64,000 bases of DNA from Bacillaceae bacterium IKA-2 (lineage in GTDB: Bacteria > Bacillota > Bacilli > Bacillales > Anaerobacillaceae): the NCBI GenBank assembly GCA_031761875.1, contig CP134492.1:2294001-2358000 (forward strand), written 5' to 3'. Numbering within the stretch: the stretch's first letter is position 1; each line of letters starts with the position of its first letter. Shown here one piece after another: positions 39,038 through 48,476 of this stretch. The notes below the pieces were generated by a model. It saw only the letters and a list, made by a program, of their open reading frames with translations. It made no database searches and was not told where the DNA came from. The translations under genes were made by a program, and so were the position numbers.

Positions 39038-39886
39038 TTAACTTACGAAAGCGTTTTCGTAGTCATACGGTGACTTCATACCACAATATTCATGGATCCT
39101 GACGGTGTTGTAAAATGTTTCTATATACTCAAACACTAGTTCATGCGCGTGTTTAAGGTTTTTAATGACATAACGGTTAATCCATTCTCGTTTAATTAAG
39201 GCATGAAATGACTCTATACATGCATTGTCCCATGGATTCCCCTTGCGTGAATAGCTGCGGACAAAGTTTGCAGCTGGTGTAGCTTCAATATAGTTTTTAG
39301 ATACGTATTGGCATCCACGGTCACTGTGTATAACCACGGGTAGACTGATTTTACGGTTTTTCTTGGCTTTCTCAAGAGCTTTTAGTACATGTTCTGTGGA
39401 TAAACTATCCGATAGCTCCCAACCTATTATTTTTCTTGAATATAGATCCATGACACTAGTTAAGTAGACAAATCCAATTACTGTGTGAATATAAGTTATA
39501 TCTGTGACCCAAACGGCATTTGCTACTGGTGGTCTGAAGTCTCTATTTAAAATGTTTTTAAGCTTATTGTCGAAGTCAGGATCAATGGTTGTTCTCACAT
39601 ATGGGCGAACCCAGATGGCTTTTATTCCTTCTTCTCTCATGTAGTTACCCACGGTCTTCGTTGTTATCTCATGGCCTCTTGACTGAAGTATGGAAGCTAT
39701 TTTAGGTGCTCCATATATTTGATGAGATTCATTGTAAATCTTTATTATTTCCGTTTTTATGGCTTGTTTCCTTTTTTCTTGATTAGATATTGATCTCTTA
39801 GACCAGCTATAATATCCTGATGAAGAAACGTCTAAAAGTTTAAGCACACTGTTAACAGATATCTTGCGCTCCTTCGATAAGTCCAT
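39038..39886 (-). CDS. IS3-family transposase OrfB (DDE integrase)
   Basis: This 282-residue catalytic part has an HTH_21 region (IYGAPKIASIL) and an rve DDE core: Asp in WVTDITYI, Asp in HSDRGCQY and Glu in ACIESFHALIKREW. All three catalytic acids are present, so the element may still be active. Expressed as an OrfAB fusion by -1 frameshift, with a possible internal start at 39886. Confidence 0.92.
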   Translation of the reverse strand: MDLSKERKISVNSVLKLLDVSSSGYYSWSKRSISNQEKRKQAIKTEIIKIYNESHQIYGAPKIASILQSRGHEITTKTVGNYMREEGIKAIWVRPYVRTTIDPDFDNKLKNILNRDFRPPVANAVWVTDITYIHTVIGFVYLTSVMDLYSRKIIGWELSDSLSTEHVLKALEKAKKNRKISLPVVIHSDRGCQYVSKNYIEATPAANFVRSYSRKGNPWDNACIESFHALIKREWINRYVIKNLKHAHELVFEYIETFYNTVRIHEYCGMKSPYDYENAFVS

Positions 39887-39909
39887 TGTTTCTTTAAAAA
39901 TAGACTCTG

Positions 39910-40203
39910 TTAATTGTTCAGTATGCCGATAGCCTTTTTTAAGATTTCTAAGGCATCCTTTGAGTCCTTTAATTCTTTCTTTAGACGGGCAACTTCCTTC
40001 TCTGAATCTGAATTAAAATTACCTGATCCTCTGTGGTTAACTACACCATCATTTTCTTTTGCAGCTTTGACCCACTTGCTTAAAGTGGAGTGACCTATCT
40101 TCAAGTCCTTTGCGACTTGTTCAATGCTTTTATCAGATGAATAATAGTGATTAACAGCGTCTTGCTTAAACTCAGCACTATAACTTTTACCTCGATTCCC
40201 CAT
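39910..40203 (-). CDS. IS3-family transposase OrfA
   Basis: This 97-residue helix-turn-helix protein (YSAEFKQDAVNHYYSSDKS, LKIGHSTLSKWVKAA) ends in a leucine-rich coiled coil (VARLKKELKDSKDALEILKKA). Near its end an A6G slippery run (39934-39940 on the plus-strand complement) would let ribosomes shift -1 into the OrfB frame, which is open from there, producing the OrfAB transposase. ATG follows GGGGGGAAC. Confidence 0.9.
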   Translation of the reverse strand: MGNRGKSYSAEFKQDAVNHYYSSDKSIEQVAKDLKIGHSTLSKWVKAAKENDGVVNHRGSGNFNSDSEKEVARLKKELKDSKDALEILKKAIGILNN

Positions 40204-41965: not shown

Positions 41966-42297
41966 GGCATACCTTCGGACAAGATCTCGCTTTCTTCTCT
42001 GCACTCTGTCCGAACAAGGCATACCTTCGGACAAGATCTCACTTTCTTCTCTGCACTCTGTCCGAACAAGGCATACCTTCGGACAAGATCTCGCTTTCTC
42101 CTCTGCACTCTGTCCGAACAAGACATACCTTCGGACAAGATCTCGCTTTCTCCTCTGCACTCTGTCCGAACAAGGCATACCTTCGGACAAGATCTCGCTT
42201 TCTCCTCTGCACTCTGTCCGAACAAGGCATACCTTCGGACAAGATCTCGTTTTCTCCTCTGCACTCTGTCCGAACAAGACATACCTTCGGACAAGAT
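41966..42297. repeat. 52-bp tandem repeat array, 6.4 copies
   Basis: Units start at 41966, 42018, 42070, 42122, 42174, 42226 and 42278 (last one partial, 20 bp). Units differ at only one to three positions. Each contains TTCGGACA and its complement TGTCCGAA, so hairpins can form inside a unit and across unit borders (11-nt loop CAAGGCATACC). There are no unique spacers, so it is not CRISPR. The unit has no stop codon in any frame, so all six frames appear open; this is not evidence of coding. Confidence 0.95.
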
Positions 42298-42415
42298 TGA
42301 TCATCAAGGAGGTATGAAGTGGTAAATAGTCTGTCATTCATTGGTAGACATTTTGTAATTCAGCAGTAAGAACTATGTTAAGGATGGGACATTTCATTGG
42401 CTCTCACCCAATTGT

Positions 42416-43042
42416 TTATATTTTGCCGATATCTTCATTTCGACGTTCGATTCCCGGCATACCTGGAACCCAATTTGCTGGGACTCCTAAATTAGTTTGT
42501 CTACCGTATTGGATCCCCTGTAGTAACCGCATGATTTCGTACGTGTTTCTGCCGACCTCACGTGGGTAGATTAATTTTGATACGATAACTCCTTCGGGAT
42601 CAACAATCACTGTTGCTCTATAGGCTACACCAGAATCTTCATCAAACACCCTGTAAGCACGACTTATTTGATGATTCCGGTCGCTAATAAGAGGAAACTT
42701 CACCTGACTTGCAGTTGGAGAAATATCAACAAAGATTTTGTGAGCATAGACACTGTCAGTACTAATACCAAAAATTTCAGCATTTAATTGTTTTATTTGA
42801 GGATAATGAGCAGCAACTGCTGCTAACTCAGTTGGTCAAACAAAAGTGAAATCACTAGCATAAAAAAATAAAATCCTCCATTTCCCATGATAATCTTCAC
42901 TATTTAAAGTTTTGATTTCCCCATTCACATAGGCTTCAGCAGAAAAAGCAGGAGCTGAATCATCTCTGCTTGCACAAAATGGTAACGGATAATGGGTGAT
43001 TTGTTCGGTATTTAATTTCATTTGTTTTGTATGTTCTTCCAT
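42416..43042 (-). CDS. peroxiredoxin with in-frame UGA at the catalytic Cys; probable selenoprotein (PrxU-like)
   Basis: Read through one UGA, the frame encodes 208 residues of an AhpC/TSA peroxiredoxin. The UGA (42836-42838) is codon 69 and falls in DFTFV-U-PTELAA, where homologues have the peroxidatic Cys of FVCPTE. Frame and sequence quality are unbroken on both sides: SAPAFSAEAYVNGEIKTL and FFYASDFTFV before; GISTDSVYAHKIF, FPLISDRNHQISRAYRV, RATVIVDPEGVI and PANWVPGMPGIERR after. A SECIS-like hairpin begins right after the UGA. The usual resolving Cys of VCPANW is missing (LGVPANW); the only Cys left is near the N-terminus (LPFCASRDD). It would reduce peroxides using selenocysteine. A nonsense-mutated pseudogene is the alternative, but a single stop at exactly the catalytic codon argues against it. 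Confidence 0.82.
42798..42838 (-). promoter_or_regulatory. bacterial SECIS-like hairpin downstream of UGA
   Basis: Seventeen bases after the UGA comes a four-base loop AGTT, closed by six pairs (AGCAGC with GCTGCT). Below it TT and CATTATC form an internal bulge and TGAG pairs with CTCA. As I recall, bacterial SECIS elements need an apical loop with G in its first two bases about 16-37 nt after the UGA, with a bulged U below; this fits. Confidence 0.65.
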
Positions 43043-43447
43043 CCTAATCTAATCATCCTCTCTTATAATCTTTTTAGAAATATAATAAAGCATATTGACC
43101 TGTATGCTAGGTTATACTAATCAACATTAGTTTATAATCCATGAAACCATCCTTGATTAGATTGCTTAGGTTACCTATAAACCTCTCCCCTAGTCAATAT
43201 ATGGTATGTCGTTACCGAGAAATTGGTATATAGGTTTTTACCCAAATTTAGCAAATTGCGATTGGTTAAATTTAAATTTTTTGATAGTCCCTTATCCCTA
43301 TTTTGTGTAAATATGCTAAATTGTCACTTAAAAATTTAGCAAACGCATGCAACTCCTCTATATTAATAAAACAAGAACTACTGATTGAATAATAATTCCT
43401 TTAAAGGGAAAATTATAATTATAATCAATTTTTCGGAGGTAATGACT
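43043..43447. promoter_or_regulatory. divergent promoter region between the peroxiredoxin and DUF3231 genes
   Basis: AGCATA-N8-TATGCT at 43089-43108 is a palindrome placed where it could control the peroxiredoxin gene. TGCTAAATT / AATTTAGCA form an inverted repeat at 43314-43341, and AATTTAGCAAA also occurs at about 43246. No promoter could be fixed. Confidence 0.35.
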
Positions 43448-44230: not shown

Positions 44231-44313
44231 TAGAATAATATCAATTGAAAAACGGTCCAGTACTTTAACACTAATCTCTTACTGTTATGATGGCAGTAAA
44301 GGGGTGGGATGGA

Positions 44314-45111
44314 GTGATTGAGATAATGGACAAACATGCAATAATAAAACTAAAGCAGCAAGGTGTATCCAATAGAAAAGCTGCCAAGCTTTTAAACATC
44401 AATCGGAAAACAGTCGCAATCTATTGGAATGAGTACCAGAAGAACAATACTCTGTTGAATGCCTTAGACGTTAATAAAAAAGAAGTACAAGAAGTACAAG
44501 AAAAAATATGCGAGGCACCAAAGTATAATGCTCAAAATAGAAAGCCAAGAAAGTACACAGCAGAAATCGATACCAGATTAGACGAAATCCTAGAGAGTGA
44601 ATCTGAAAAGTGTAAAGAGTTAGGTCGACATAAACAACAGCTGACTAATTTGCAAATTCACCAAATGCTAGTCAATGAAAAGTTTGATATTGGATATACA
44701 ACTATTACAAATAAAATCAGAGAAAAAAGAAACAAACCTAAGGAATGCTTTATTAAACAATCATATGATTTAGGGCAAAGACTTGAATATGATTTTGGCG
44801 AAGTGAAGTTAGAAATAAACGGGGAGATCAATACCTATCATCTAGCTGTACTATCTTCACCAGCTGCTGATTTCAGATGGGCGTATTTATATAAGAATCA
44901 AAAGCAAGACGTCTTTATGGATTCTCATGTGCGTTTCTTCGATATGTTAGGTGGCGTTTATTCAGAGATTGTGTACGACAATATGAGAAATGTAGTATCA
45001 AAATTCATAGGTAAAACTGAAAAAGTCCTCAATGAGAATTTGCTAAAATTGTCACTCTACTACGGATTCGATATCAACGTCACTAATTGTTTCAGTGGAA
45101 ACGAGAAGGGT
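44314..45111 (+). pseudogene. istA: IstA transposase, N-terminal part
   Basis: This segment has the helix-turn-helix KLKQQGVSNRKAAKLLNINRKTV and the first two catalytic acids (EYDFGEV and YDNMRNVV) of an IS21 transposase. It ends in NCFSGNEKG, where the RIT element begins. GTG 44314 after AAAGGGGTGGG is the likely start; ATG 44326 is possible. Removing 45112-48611 joins it in frame to 48612-49292 and gives an uninterrupted protein of about 500 residues (GNEKG-HVEGSVKIIRNKAF). Confidence 0.9.
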
Positions 45112-45148
45112 AATGAAAAGTATATGATAATGTAAAGTAAGGCTGTTA
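45104..45148 (+). repeat. RIT left terminal inverted repeat (45 bp)
   Basis: A 45-bp sequence starting AGAAGGGTAATGAAAAG and ending GGCTGTTA is perfectly repeated in inverse at 48541-48585. It includes the motif AATGTAAAGTAA, which recurs inverted at about 45178-45190 and again at 48499-48510. Confidence 0.92.
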
Positions 45149-45251
45149 GATAACTATAAACAAAGTGATTCTAGTTGTTTTACTTTACATTTTCAATGGC
45201 TATATTTAATATAGGCGAGGTCGCCTACGTTAAATATAGGAGGTTATGATT

Positions 45252-46499
45252 ATGGAACAAAAATATCAAACATTTGAACAACTGTCCTCAGAAGTAGTTA
45301 AATCCCTTCGGGATATGTCCTATTCCGAATCAAGGATAAGCCAATATCGTTCCGCGTGGCAAAAACTGGCTACTTTTATGGAAAACAATCAGATTGAGTA
45401 TTATTCAGCGTCAGTAGGTGGAGCATTTATAGCTGACTTTATTGGTACTGGGAAATACGAGGAATTTAGCCATTGGGAAAAGAGCATAATCCGGTGTGTG
45501 GATGTTCTAACTGAATTTCAGTCTACAGGAACGTTCCAATACAGAAGGGCAAAGAAATCCTACCAATTTTATGGTTGCATCGGTAATCCTATGGTGGATT
45601 TCCTTAATCACCGAAAATCTTTGGGTATTACAGAAAATACGCTTGGTCATTACCGATTAAATCTTCATCGCTTTCTTAGTTTTTTTAATGAAGAAGGAGT
45701 CATGGAAACCGAAGCAATTAAAAAACAACACATTTTAGGATTTGTGAATCAGCTTGGTTTTTATACACCTGCAACGCGCCACAGCATGCTTACCACTTTA
45801 CGTGGGTTTATGAGATATCTACATGACAATGGGTATACAGGGATTGACTTTTCATACCTAATTCCAAAAGACAATTACAAGAAGCAATGTAAACTACCCA
45901 CGACATATACGAAAAATGAAGTTGAATCATTAATCAATACTGTTGACAGAAGTAGCCCAAAAGGGAAGCGTGATGCTGCTATGATACTATTGGCTGCACG
46001 ATTGGGATTGAGGGCTTCTGACATCTGTCTGTTGAAGTTTGAAAACATACACTGGGAAAAGAATACAATTACACTTGTTCAACAAAAGACTAAAAATAAG
46101 ATTGAGCATCCACTTTTAATAGAAATAGGAGAGGCTATTATCGATTATCTGAAGTATGGACGGCCTAAATCTGATCTTCCTTATGTCTTCCTACATGCAA
46201 TCCCGCCATATAACTGCCTAAATAGATCGACTTTGCATAGCATTGTTACTTTTTATCTCCGTCGTGCTGGCATTAAAAACATAACAGAAAAGAAACATGG
46301 TCCTCATGCTTTGAGGCACAGTCTTGCTGGGCAACTACTGGAACAAAAAATACCCATCCATGTTATATCAGAAGTGCTAGGTCACAAGAATACCGAAAGC
46401 ACAAAAACTTATTTACGAATAGACTTAACATCTTTGAGCCAATGCGCATTAGATGTTCCACTCTTAAAAACGCCATTTTATGCCAAGGAGGTGGAATGA
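45252..46499 (+). CDS. RIT tyrosine recombinase A
   Basis: This 415-residue recombinase has an extended N-terminal SAM-like region, then catalytic residues Arg (LGLRASD), Lys (QQKTKNK), His/Arg (HALRHSLAG), His (LGHKN) and Tyr (KTYLRI). All are present. ATG 45252 is spaced correctly from TAGGAGG. Its stop overlaps the start of the second recombinase gene, so the trio is one translational unit. Confidence 0.92.
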   Translation: MEQKYQTFEQLSSEVVKSLRDMSYSESRISQYRSAWQKLATFMENNQIEYYSASVGGAFIADFIGTGKYEEFSHWEKSIIRCVDVLTEFQSTGTFQYRRAKKSYQFYGCIGNPMVDFLNHRKSLGITENTLGHYRLNLHRFLSFFNEEGVMETEAIKKQHILGFVNQLGFYTPATRHSMLTTLRGFMRYLHDNGYTGIDFSYLIPKDNYKKQCKLPTTYTKNEVESLINTVDRSSPKGKRDAAMILLAARLGLRASDICLLKFENIHWEKNTITLVQQKTKNKIEHPLLIEIGEAIIDYLKYGRPKSDLPYVFLHAIPPYNCLNRSTLHSIVTFYLRRAGIKNITEKKHGPHALRHSLAGQLLEQKIPIHVISEVLGHKNTESTKTYLRIDLTSLSQCALDVPLLKTPFYAKEVE

Positions 46500-47470
46500 T
46501 GCCGAACTATTGTGGTATTTATGCTGGTTTAATCGAACAGTACATTGATTTCAAAAGAAACCTCGGTTACAAGTTTGTTGATGCCACTTACACACTTTCG
46601 TTATTTGACAGATTTACAATAGATAATGCCGTATTAAAACTCGGTCTATCAAAGGAGATTGTTGATAAATGGAGTGAGAAGCGTCCAAATGAATCAGACA
46701 AGACACGTTATGCGAGGATTCATTATATTGCAAAATTTTCCGCCTATTTAAATGATATGGGATATCCATCACATATACCGAGATTGCCTAAAAAGTACAG
46801 CAGTACGTTTGTACCACATATTTTCTCGAAAAAGGAAGTGAATGCATTCTTCGATGCATGTGATACGCTTAAAGTTAATAGACGATTTGAAACAACTGTG
46901 TATGTACTCCCCGCTTTATTTAGAATGCTATATGGCTGTGGCATCCGTATCAGCGAAGCGTTATCCCTAACATGTAAGGATGTTGATCTTGATGCAAAAA
47001 ATATTATTGTCAGGGAAACGAAAAACGGCAAAGACCGAATACTCCCATTATCTGAAACACTAACTGAGGTGTGTATTCAATATAGGAATGTTCGTCCCGG
47101 CAAATATGAACCGAAAGGTTATTTTTTTATCAAGAACAATGGGCAAAAATGTAATGCCAAGGCAATATATGAATGGTTCAGAAAAATACTCTGGAATGCA
47201 GGAATTCCACATGGTGGGAAGGGTTTTGGCCCAAGAATGCATGACTTTCGTCACACTTTCAGTGTACACTCTCTTGTGAAAATGTCAGAAGCTGGGCTAG
47301 ATTTATACTACTCACTCCCAATATTATCAAAATATCTTGGGCATCAGTCATTAGAGGCTACAGATAAGTATGTAAGGCTAACATCTGACATGTACCCTGA
47401 TTTAATTAGAGAAGTAGATAACGTTTGTGCCTATGTATTTCCGGAGGTTGACCATTATGAAGCCGACTGA
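46499..47470 (+). CDS. RIT tyrosine recombinase B
   Basis: This 323-residue recombinase has Arg (GIRISEALSL), Lys (TKNGKDR), His/Arg (MHDFRHTFSVH), His (YLGHQS) and Tyr (DKYVRL), so it is catalytically complete. It starts at the second ATG of an ATGATG that overlaps the stop of gene A, after AAGGAGG. An alternative start at 46496 adds one Met. Confidence 0.92.
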   Translation: MPNYCGIYAGLIEQYIDFKRNLGYKFVDATYTLSLFDRFTIDNAVLKLGLSKEIVDKWSEKRPNESDKTRYARIHYIAKFSAYLNDMGYPSHIPRLPKKYSSTFVPHIFSKKEVNAFFDACDTLKVNRRFETTVYVLPALFRMLYGCGIRISEALSLTCKDVDLDAKNIIVRETKNGKDRILPLSETLTEVCIQYRNVRPGKYEPKGYFFIKNNGQKCNAKAIYEWFRKILWNAGIPHGGKGFGPRMHDFRHTFSVHSLVKMSEAGLDLYYSLPILSKYLGHQSLEATDKYVRLTSDMYPDLIREVDNVCAYVFPEVDHYEAD

Positions 47471-48476
47471 TTTCTCTCGCTATCTGACAGGATTTCTTAC
47501 AAAATACCTGCCAGGAGAAATGGGGTTCAGTATAAATACGATTGCCTCTTATAGAGACACATTTGTACTTTTCCTTACATTTATCAAGGATAAAAAAGGA
47601 ATAAAAACAAATTCTCTGACGCTGGGCATGATTAATAAGGAAATGGTTATTCACTTTCTTGACTGGATAGAAACAGAGCGTGGCTGTAGTACAGCCACAA
47701 GGAACGTCCGCCTTGCGGCATTACACTCTTTCTTCCAATATCTCCAGTATCAGAGCCCCGATAATCTTTTGGAATGGCAGAGAATCCTTGGAATCCGGGT
47801 TAAGAAAACAGAAACAAAATCAATCAGTTACCTAACGCTTAATGGGATCAGACTACTTTTGGAAATGCCTGATCAGTCAACTAAAATAGGACGAAGAGAT
47901 CTTGCTCTTTTGTCAATTATGTATGAAAGCGGTGGAAGAGTACAGGAAATCATTGACCTCACTCCGTCACAAGTACGTTTTGACAGACCATGTACTGTAA
48001 AGTTAATTGGTAAGGGGAATAAAGCCCGGATAGTCCCTCTGATGGATGCTCCGTTAGATTTATTAAATCGATATATGGATGAGCAGGGGCTGTTAAGTTT
48101 GTCAGCAAACATGTACCCATTGTTCTGTAACAAAAGAGGAGAAAAACTGACCCGGGCAGGGGTGAATTACATACTAGATAAATATGCACGCAAGGCTCGT
48201 ATTAAAGATCAAATATTAATCCCAGAACGATTTAGCTGTCATTGTCTGAGACATTCAAAAGCTATGCACTTACTCCAAGCAGGAGTTAATCTCATATACA
48301 TCCGTGATATACTAGGTCACCGTTCTGTCCAAACAACTGAAATTTACGCTAAGGTAGATTCAAAACAAAAAAGAGAAGCAATTGAAAAAGCATATACAGA
48401 TGTTGTACCAAAAGGTGCACCTTCTTGGCAAAAAAGTGGAGATTTATTGGAATGGCTAAAAAGATTTGATAAATAA
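47457..48476 (+). CDS. RIT tyrosine recombinase C
   Basis: This 339-residue recombinase has Arg (SGGRVQEI), Lys (GKGNKARIVP), His/Arg (CHCLRHSKAM), His (ILGHRSVQ) and Tyr (EIYAKV). ATG 47457 is correctly spaced from CCGGAGG, overlapping gene B by 14 bp. The C-terminal tail WQKSGDLLEWLKRFDK is typical of this member of the trio as I recall. Confidence 0.92.
   Translation: MKPTDFSRYLTGFLTKYLPGEMGFSINTIASYRDTFVLFLTFIKDKKGIKTNSLTLGMINKEMVIHFLDWIETERGCSTATRNVRLAALHSFFQYLQYQSPDNLLEWQRILGIRVKKTETKSISYLTLNGIRLLLEMPDQSTKIGRRDLALLSIMYESGGRVQEIIDLTPSQVRFDRPCTVKLIGKGNKARIVPLMDAPLDLLNRYMDEQGLLSLSANMYPLFCNKRGEKLTRAGVNYILDKYARKARIKDQILIPERFSCHCLRHSKAMHLLQAGVNLIYIRDILGHRSVQTTEIYAKVDSKQKREAIEKAYTDVVPKGAPSWQKSGDLLEWLKRFDK

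Follow-up and report, generated by a model that had tools for sequence, protein, structure and literature searches.

The window examined here, a stretch of 64,000 nucleotides from Bacillaceae bacterium IKA-2, carries an AhpC/Prx-type peroxiredoxin gene whose reading frame is crossed by one UGA codon (Table 1). When TGA is translated as U, positions 43042-42416 give 208 residues with that single UGA and a terminal TAA; the plus strand over the same interval is filled with stops. The original prediction had described an otherwise intact 208-codon peroxiredoxin at 42416-43042 without naming a strand, and the translation confirms both the limits and the single interruption, on the minus strand. 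The UGA stands in the context DFTFV-U-PTEL, at the position where AhpC/Prx proteins carry the peroxidatic Cys; here the alignment to Enterococcus AhpC and the Pfam AhpC-TSA match (E=3.6e-35), which places an AhpC-TSA domain in the protein, agree with the earlier assignment of the codon to the catalytic Cys site (DFTFV-U-PTE). An AlphaFold model built from a 29-sequence alignment has a mean pLDDT of 88.7, and its best matches in a structure comparison are AhpC structures, with Salmonella AhpC at the top (E=2.2e-21), so that domain and model together point to an AhpC/Prx1-type fold.

Table 1. Features of the putative selenoprotein peroxiredoxin gene, in window coordinates
Feature	Position	Strand	Remarks
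Putative Sec-containing AhpC/Prx-type peroxiredoxin gene	42416..43042	minus	208 codons + TAA; assigned by domain, alignment and model
Cys23 codon (PFCA motif)	42974..42976	minus	possible alternative resolving thiol; Cys in 34/40 close orthologs
In-frame UGA codon 69 (U69)	42836..42838	minus	peroxidatic position; predicted to be read as selenocysteine
SECIS-like hairpin, 6-bp stem AGCAGC/GCTGCT, tetraloop AGTT	42809..42824	minus	loop 17 nt after UGA
Val187 codon	42482..42484	minus	the canonical C-terminal resolving Cys would stand here but is missing

An internal stop codon may be a decay mutation or a sequencing error in what was a Cys peroxiredoxin, and the scattered distribution of the gene could be read in that sense. 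Among the 150 genomes searched, that of IKA-2 included, 18 hold an unbroken, near-full-length match (55-100% identity, exactly one TGA each), and a nineteenth match, in a genome of the same genus (G002), is a broken copy that aligns at 63% identity across residues 5-108 and contains one TGA as well as two TAA codons. The six other genomes of the genus, three of them only 62-90% complete, lack an unbroken copy, and this, together with the broken copy in G002, implies that the gene is dispensable. Decay or error is contradicted, however, by the codon itself, which is TGA in 40/40 aligned close orthologs (the window row and one plasmid ortholog included), with both flanks conserved and with covarying synonymous sites. 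Recurrence of UGA at the same codon in all 40 goes beyond chance, and the pseudogene or artefact explanation, whose probability is close to nil, was rejected on this ground. Translation and ortholog alignment likewise bear out the claim that reading is conserved on both sides of the UGA with no further defect, and the proposed comparison of homologues for UGA or Cys at this site is decided in favour of UGA. The frame-broken copy in G002 (L082 4539-5230) also retains the UGA position.

Wider searches gave a similar picture. A scan of named genomes yielded 25 loci, comprising 21 usable orthologs, one frame-broken copy (Melghirimyces), one off-site match and two distant Cys-type genes; the usable orthologs come from Bacillus, Mesobacillus, Salsuginibacillus, Salipaludibacillus, Rossellomorea, Fictibacillus, Pseudalkalibacillus, Ammoniphilus, Alicyclobacillaceae and other Bacillota. 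Class-wide, 15/398 genomes gave matches at E<=1e-45, and phylum-wide 21/398 at E<=1e-42, with one TGA in each match listed; some of these matches are already counted in other sets. All 60 fetched rows with at least 45% identity to the query have TGA, and no fetched row covering the site at that identity has a Cys codon; since the clade label was assigned to TGA rows only, the statement that 60/60 clade rows have TGA is true by construction. The two genome collections overlap in sequence, and the 60 rows amount to 55 different proteins and 53 distinct hairpin rows. Dropped before the counts were L073 and its apparent twin L094 (both TGA, frame-broken after the UGA), L076 (site not covered), the broken copy in G002 and an unfetched TGA match (G854); L043, L075 and L077 have Cys codons and were excluded from the tree. 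Stop-free matches in the 150-genome search reach at most 45% identity among the matches listed, and the 11 Cys rows of the tree at most 41.5% to the query. The UGA accordingly occupies a redox position at which more distant homologs have Cys, the pattern by which bacterial selenoproteins are recognised.

A second explanation is readthrough of the UGA, or its reassignment, with Cys or Trp inserted and no involvement of selenium. Against this stands the genome (one contig of 4.42 Mb, 99.99% complete), in which all four components whose search the original prediction had proposed are present: one tRNA-Sec above the Rfam gathering score, with anticodon UCA, selA and selB (profile scores of 558.9 and 336.9 bits), and two selD genes that exceed the cut-off and each contain one UGA themselves. 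One selD lies within about 7.5 kb of selA and selB. Furthermore, selA is over its cut-off in 18/18 genomes with the unbroken gene compared with 58/132 others (Fisher p=1.6e-6, related genomes being counted as independent, as are the rows in the covariation analysis below). UGA is also found at redox sites elsewhere in the genome, namely in its own PrxU gene (405.4 bits against a cut-off of 270) and, adjoining the second selD, in a TlpA-like ORF (SWURC) and an AhpD-like ORF (CHYU); the TlpA-like ORF has another UGA at codon 4, possibly upstream of its true start. With the two selD genes, and with a hairpin like that of fdhF after the UGA of the window gene, these speak for selenium; a Cys or Trp reading must be considered very improbable, and the catalytic-site stop codon is almost certainly read as selenocysteine. 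The second selD and the TlpA-like and AhpD-like ORFs form what looks like a small selenoprotein cluster (L081, G000:C1:3630500-3636500), and each selD copy is neighboured by an ORF which, from its translation, we take to be a LysR-like regulator (L080 5756-6706 and L081 3471-4436). Next after the tRNA-Sec comes an ORF presumably encoding a phage-type integrase (L001 1501-2911), as if the tRNA gene had served as an integration site.

The SECIS-like hairpin with an AGTT loop 17 nt past the UGA is present as the original prediction claimed, and it is conserved and covarying. Its 14-base core, GCRGCRGTYGCYGC, is present in a single copy in the 4.42-Mb genome. At fixed positions derived from the clade, all six stem pairs are formed in 49 of the 60 rows, five in ten and three in one; the same positions give at most 3/6 pairs in the Cys-type genes (n=11) and from 1 to 6 in the PrxU-like rows (n=9). 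Because the arms consist of GCN repeats, the proportion of paired cells tells little (97% in register, 88% when slid by -3 and 73% by +3) and it is the covariation that carries weight, with a score of 0.156 over the 53 distinct rows that falls to 0.029 or less when the register is slid by 1 to 3 bases and that was reached by 0/200 shuffles. The outermost loop bases fall on the wobble positions of the Ala75 and Val76 codons, yet they are complementary in 60/60 rows (G-C 38, A-T 16, C-G 6), as against 6/27 for control Ala-Val pairs taken from other parts of these genes, and the third positions of Ala74 and Ala77 are likewise coupled among the 40 close rows. The loop bases recognised by SelB are the G and the U, and the loops of the clade are of three types, GGUC, AGUU and CGUG, which require 8 changes of type on the clade tree, of which the well-supported branches force fewer.

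Single-sequence folds recover all five core pairs in 52/60 rows at 39 nt and in 46/60 at 51 nt. The window row alone folds into the hairpin at both lengths (pair probability 0.79 at 39 nt) and into a register-shifted hairpin at 57 nt, and in one relative (L053) the core pairs have a probability of only about 0.05. The hairpin lies directly downstream of the UGA, its 17 nt fall within the 16-37 nt given for the distance from UGA to apical loop in bacterial SECIS elements in a portion of one review (PMC10778597), and its AGUU loop contains a G, an invariant loop G being reported in an excerpt of another source (PMC4607533). The E. coli fdhF sequence served as the yardstick: in its element, TGCA-GGTC-TGCA, the loop comes 18 nt after the UGA rather than 17 and is GGUC rather than AGUU, and its fold is longer than the window hairpin. 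The genome's own PrxU gene has TTTCAGC-AGTT-GCTGAAA at the same offset as the window gene, with a predicted energy of -8.0 kcal/mol, an alternative hairpin being slightly stabler at -8.6. A search of 42380-43120 with Rfam gave nothing beyond a chance-level match in the peroxiredoxin gene. The peptide AAVAA, which follows the Sec position, is usual in the clade, rarer in PrxU-like rows and absent from Cys-type rows, and it may be the RNA hairpin that dictates it. Taken at the level of sequence, the recoding of UGA 69 to Sec is strongly supported by these data, and so is the original interpretation of the gene as a likely selenoprotein, for which Sec genes, UGA in close homologs and a conserved, covarying hairpin all speak.

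A tree of 80 rows falls into three groups, each forming one side of a branch: the present clade (60 rows, support 100/97), PrxU-like Sec proteins (9 rows, 100/99) and Cys-type AhpC/Prx proteins (11 rows, 97/89). The groups had been set beforehand on the basis of codon and query identity, and the tree afterwards agreed with the split; the tree program warns of long branches. As the three groups join at one point with no outgroup, the tree is silent on a shared origin of the two Sec groups. The PrxU-like rows, with 38-43% identity to the query, are eight fetched phylum matches (L105-L112) and one further gene of the IKA-2 genome (L079). The window protein scores below the cut-offs of both relevant family models, with 166.6 bits against 272 for AhpC (TIGR03137) and 161.9 against 270 for PrxU (NCBIfam NF040737), a model that we assume to represent the Sec peroxiredoxin of Eubacterium acidaminophilum (Sohling 2001). 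For two further members of the clade the scores with NF040737 were 170.8 and 154.7 bits, under the same cut-off of 270, and both were also under that of the AhpC model, so the Bacillota group seems to have no family model of its own. PrxU resembles the window protein in its Sec at the peroxidatic site and its AhpC-like sequence, and the nine PrxU-like rows likewise have no C-terminal resolving Cys. PrxU nevertheless differs in forming its own group in the tree and in having Gly six residues before Sec (9 rows) where the clade has Ser in 60/60, and the C-terminus is shorter in the window clade. With the AhpC 2-Cys peroxiredoxins the window protein has in common the fold, the motif DFTFV-[U/C]-PTE and the active-site Thr and Arg, and it departs from them in having Sec instead of Cys and in the loss of the resolving Cys.

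This loss is general in the clade. The C-terminal resolving Cys is found in 11/11 Cys-type rows, in 0/9 PrxU-like rows and in 0/60 clade rows, which have Val, Ile, Ala, Thr or Leu at the site, and the window protein, with Val187, thus lacks the residue that defines a typical 2-Cys peroxiredoxin. Its absence from all 60 rows suggests that the clade peroxidase is probably of a 1-Sec type. Peroxidase activity would follow from family membership, and a different role, in which the selenoprotein has chiefly a thiol-disulfide or regulatory redox function, has to be weighed: it would be in keeping with the missing resolving Cys and with the Pro at U-7 (PxxxTxxC/U motif), which is kept in only 12/60 rows and is replaced by Ala, Ser or Gly in 48/60 (Ala62 in the window protein). 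The AhpC fold of the model argues instead for a peroxidase, as do Thr or Ser at U-3 in 60/60 rows (Thr66 in the window protein) and Arg142 in 60/60, so that a mainly non-peroxidatic role appears unlikely. As to the resolving step, N-terminal Cys residues may provide a resolving arm where they are present, C23 often occurring with a second Cys at the C18 column (27/40 close orthologs; Tyr in the window protein). They lie near a low-confidence stretch of the model (residues 11-20, mean pLDDT 50). A universal N-terminal resolving Cys was considered and rejected, since C23 is absent in 6/40 close orthologs and such a role cannot therefore be general.

The best explanation as a whole, to which we assign a probability of about 96%, is that the gene encodes a selenoprotein peroxiredoxin which receives Sec through SelB and the hairpin and which would reduce peroxides, most likely in a 1-Sec cycle. 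SelB, Sec-tRNA-Sec and the hairpin after the UGA would lead the ribosome to place Sec at codon 69, and the Sec selenolate, held in a normal AhpC-like pocket with the conserved Thr66 and Arg142, would reduce hydrogen or organic peroxides. The resulting selenenic acid would most likely be reduced by an outside thiol, either thioredoxin or a low-molecular-weight thiol, and in many members C23, often with C18, might act in its place; an outside thiol as recycling partner in a 1-Sec cycle appears to be the simplest reading. More tentative, and falling somewhat short of even odds, is the proposal that the clade constitutes a Sec-only Bacillota peroxiredoxin subfamily without resolving Cys, distinct from PrxU, in which AAVAA is fixed by the SECIS element and not by what the protein needs, and an N-terminal Cys tail, often CxxxxC, is a possible substitute for the resolving Cys.

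Among bacterial selenoproteins, Sec-containing peroxiredoxins form an established family. To judge from the portions of the sources consulted, 12 were counted in 2006 (PMC1794560) and 91, across 78 organisms, in 2016 (PMC5029168), and the table of a 2026 review places them above its 'Predicted with high confidence' part (PMC13188914). The early survey counts only three selenoproteins for Bacillales (PMC1794560). A Sec-AhpC is reported from Blastococcus saxobsidens, where Sec is predicted in an AhpC protein and a bacterial SECIS comes after it; similar to the window gene by that description, it differs in inserting Sec at UAG with a CUA tRNA (PMC5330540). Since such relatives are already known, the gene, real as it is, represents no new kind of system. 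A literature search that had most subscription articles beyond its reach met no paper on a Bacillota Sec-peroxiredoxin group. What the locus adds is a selenoprotein with good support, together with a Sec-only group of the Bacillota, Bacillaceae included. It also offers a natural data set in which a bacterial SECIS-like hairpin covaries at synonymous sites and has three interchangeable loop types, and it poses the question of how a Sec peroxidase that lacks the resolving Cys is recycled.

The original prediction had further supposed that standard annotation would split such a gene into two fragments and so lose it, which is too strong as a general rule. In at least one case the gene has been kept whole: the close ortholog on a Cytobacillus spongiae plasmid (WP_225003809.1) is annotated as a single 597-bp CDS that runs through the UGA. 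Its entry in the plasmid collection table carries no selenoprotein note, and we therefore only infer that Sec was recognised in that record.

The surroundings of the gene suggest no partner. Within 4 kb, no ORF group is common to more than 6/24 loci, and most of the neighbour ORF groups listed follow either the Salipaludibacillus or the Rossellomorea/Cytobacillus set. A scan for promoters and terminators gave no excess over shuffles. Regulation by PerR was considered and rejected, no box of at least 12/14 being found in 58 upstream regions (shuffle mean 0.5), with a best score of 11/14 for the window gene. Flanking the gene are ORFs which, from their translations, we take to be an IS3-type transposase pair, one IS21-like transposase and a run of three tyrosine recombinases; these transposase- and recombinase-like ORFs lie at 39038-40203 (minus), 44287-45135 (plus) and 45246-48476 (plus). 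Just past the 3' end of the gene, at 41966-42297, is a 52-bp tandem repeat in 6.4 copies, each holding the inverted repeat GTCCGAA...TTCGGAC; the 25-base core of the repeat occurs six times genome-wide, in every case within this interval.
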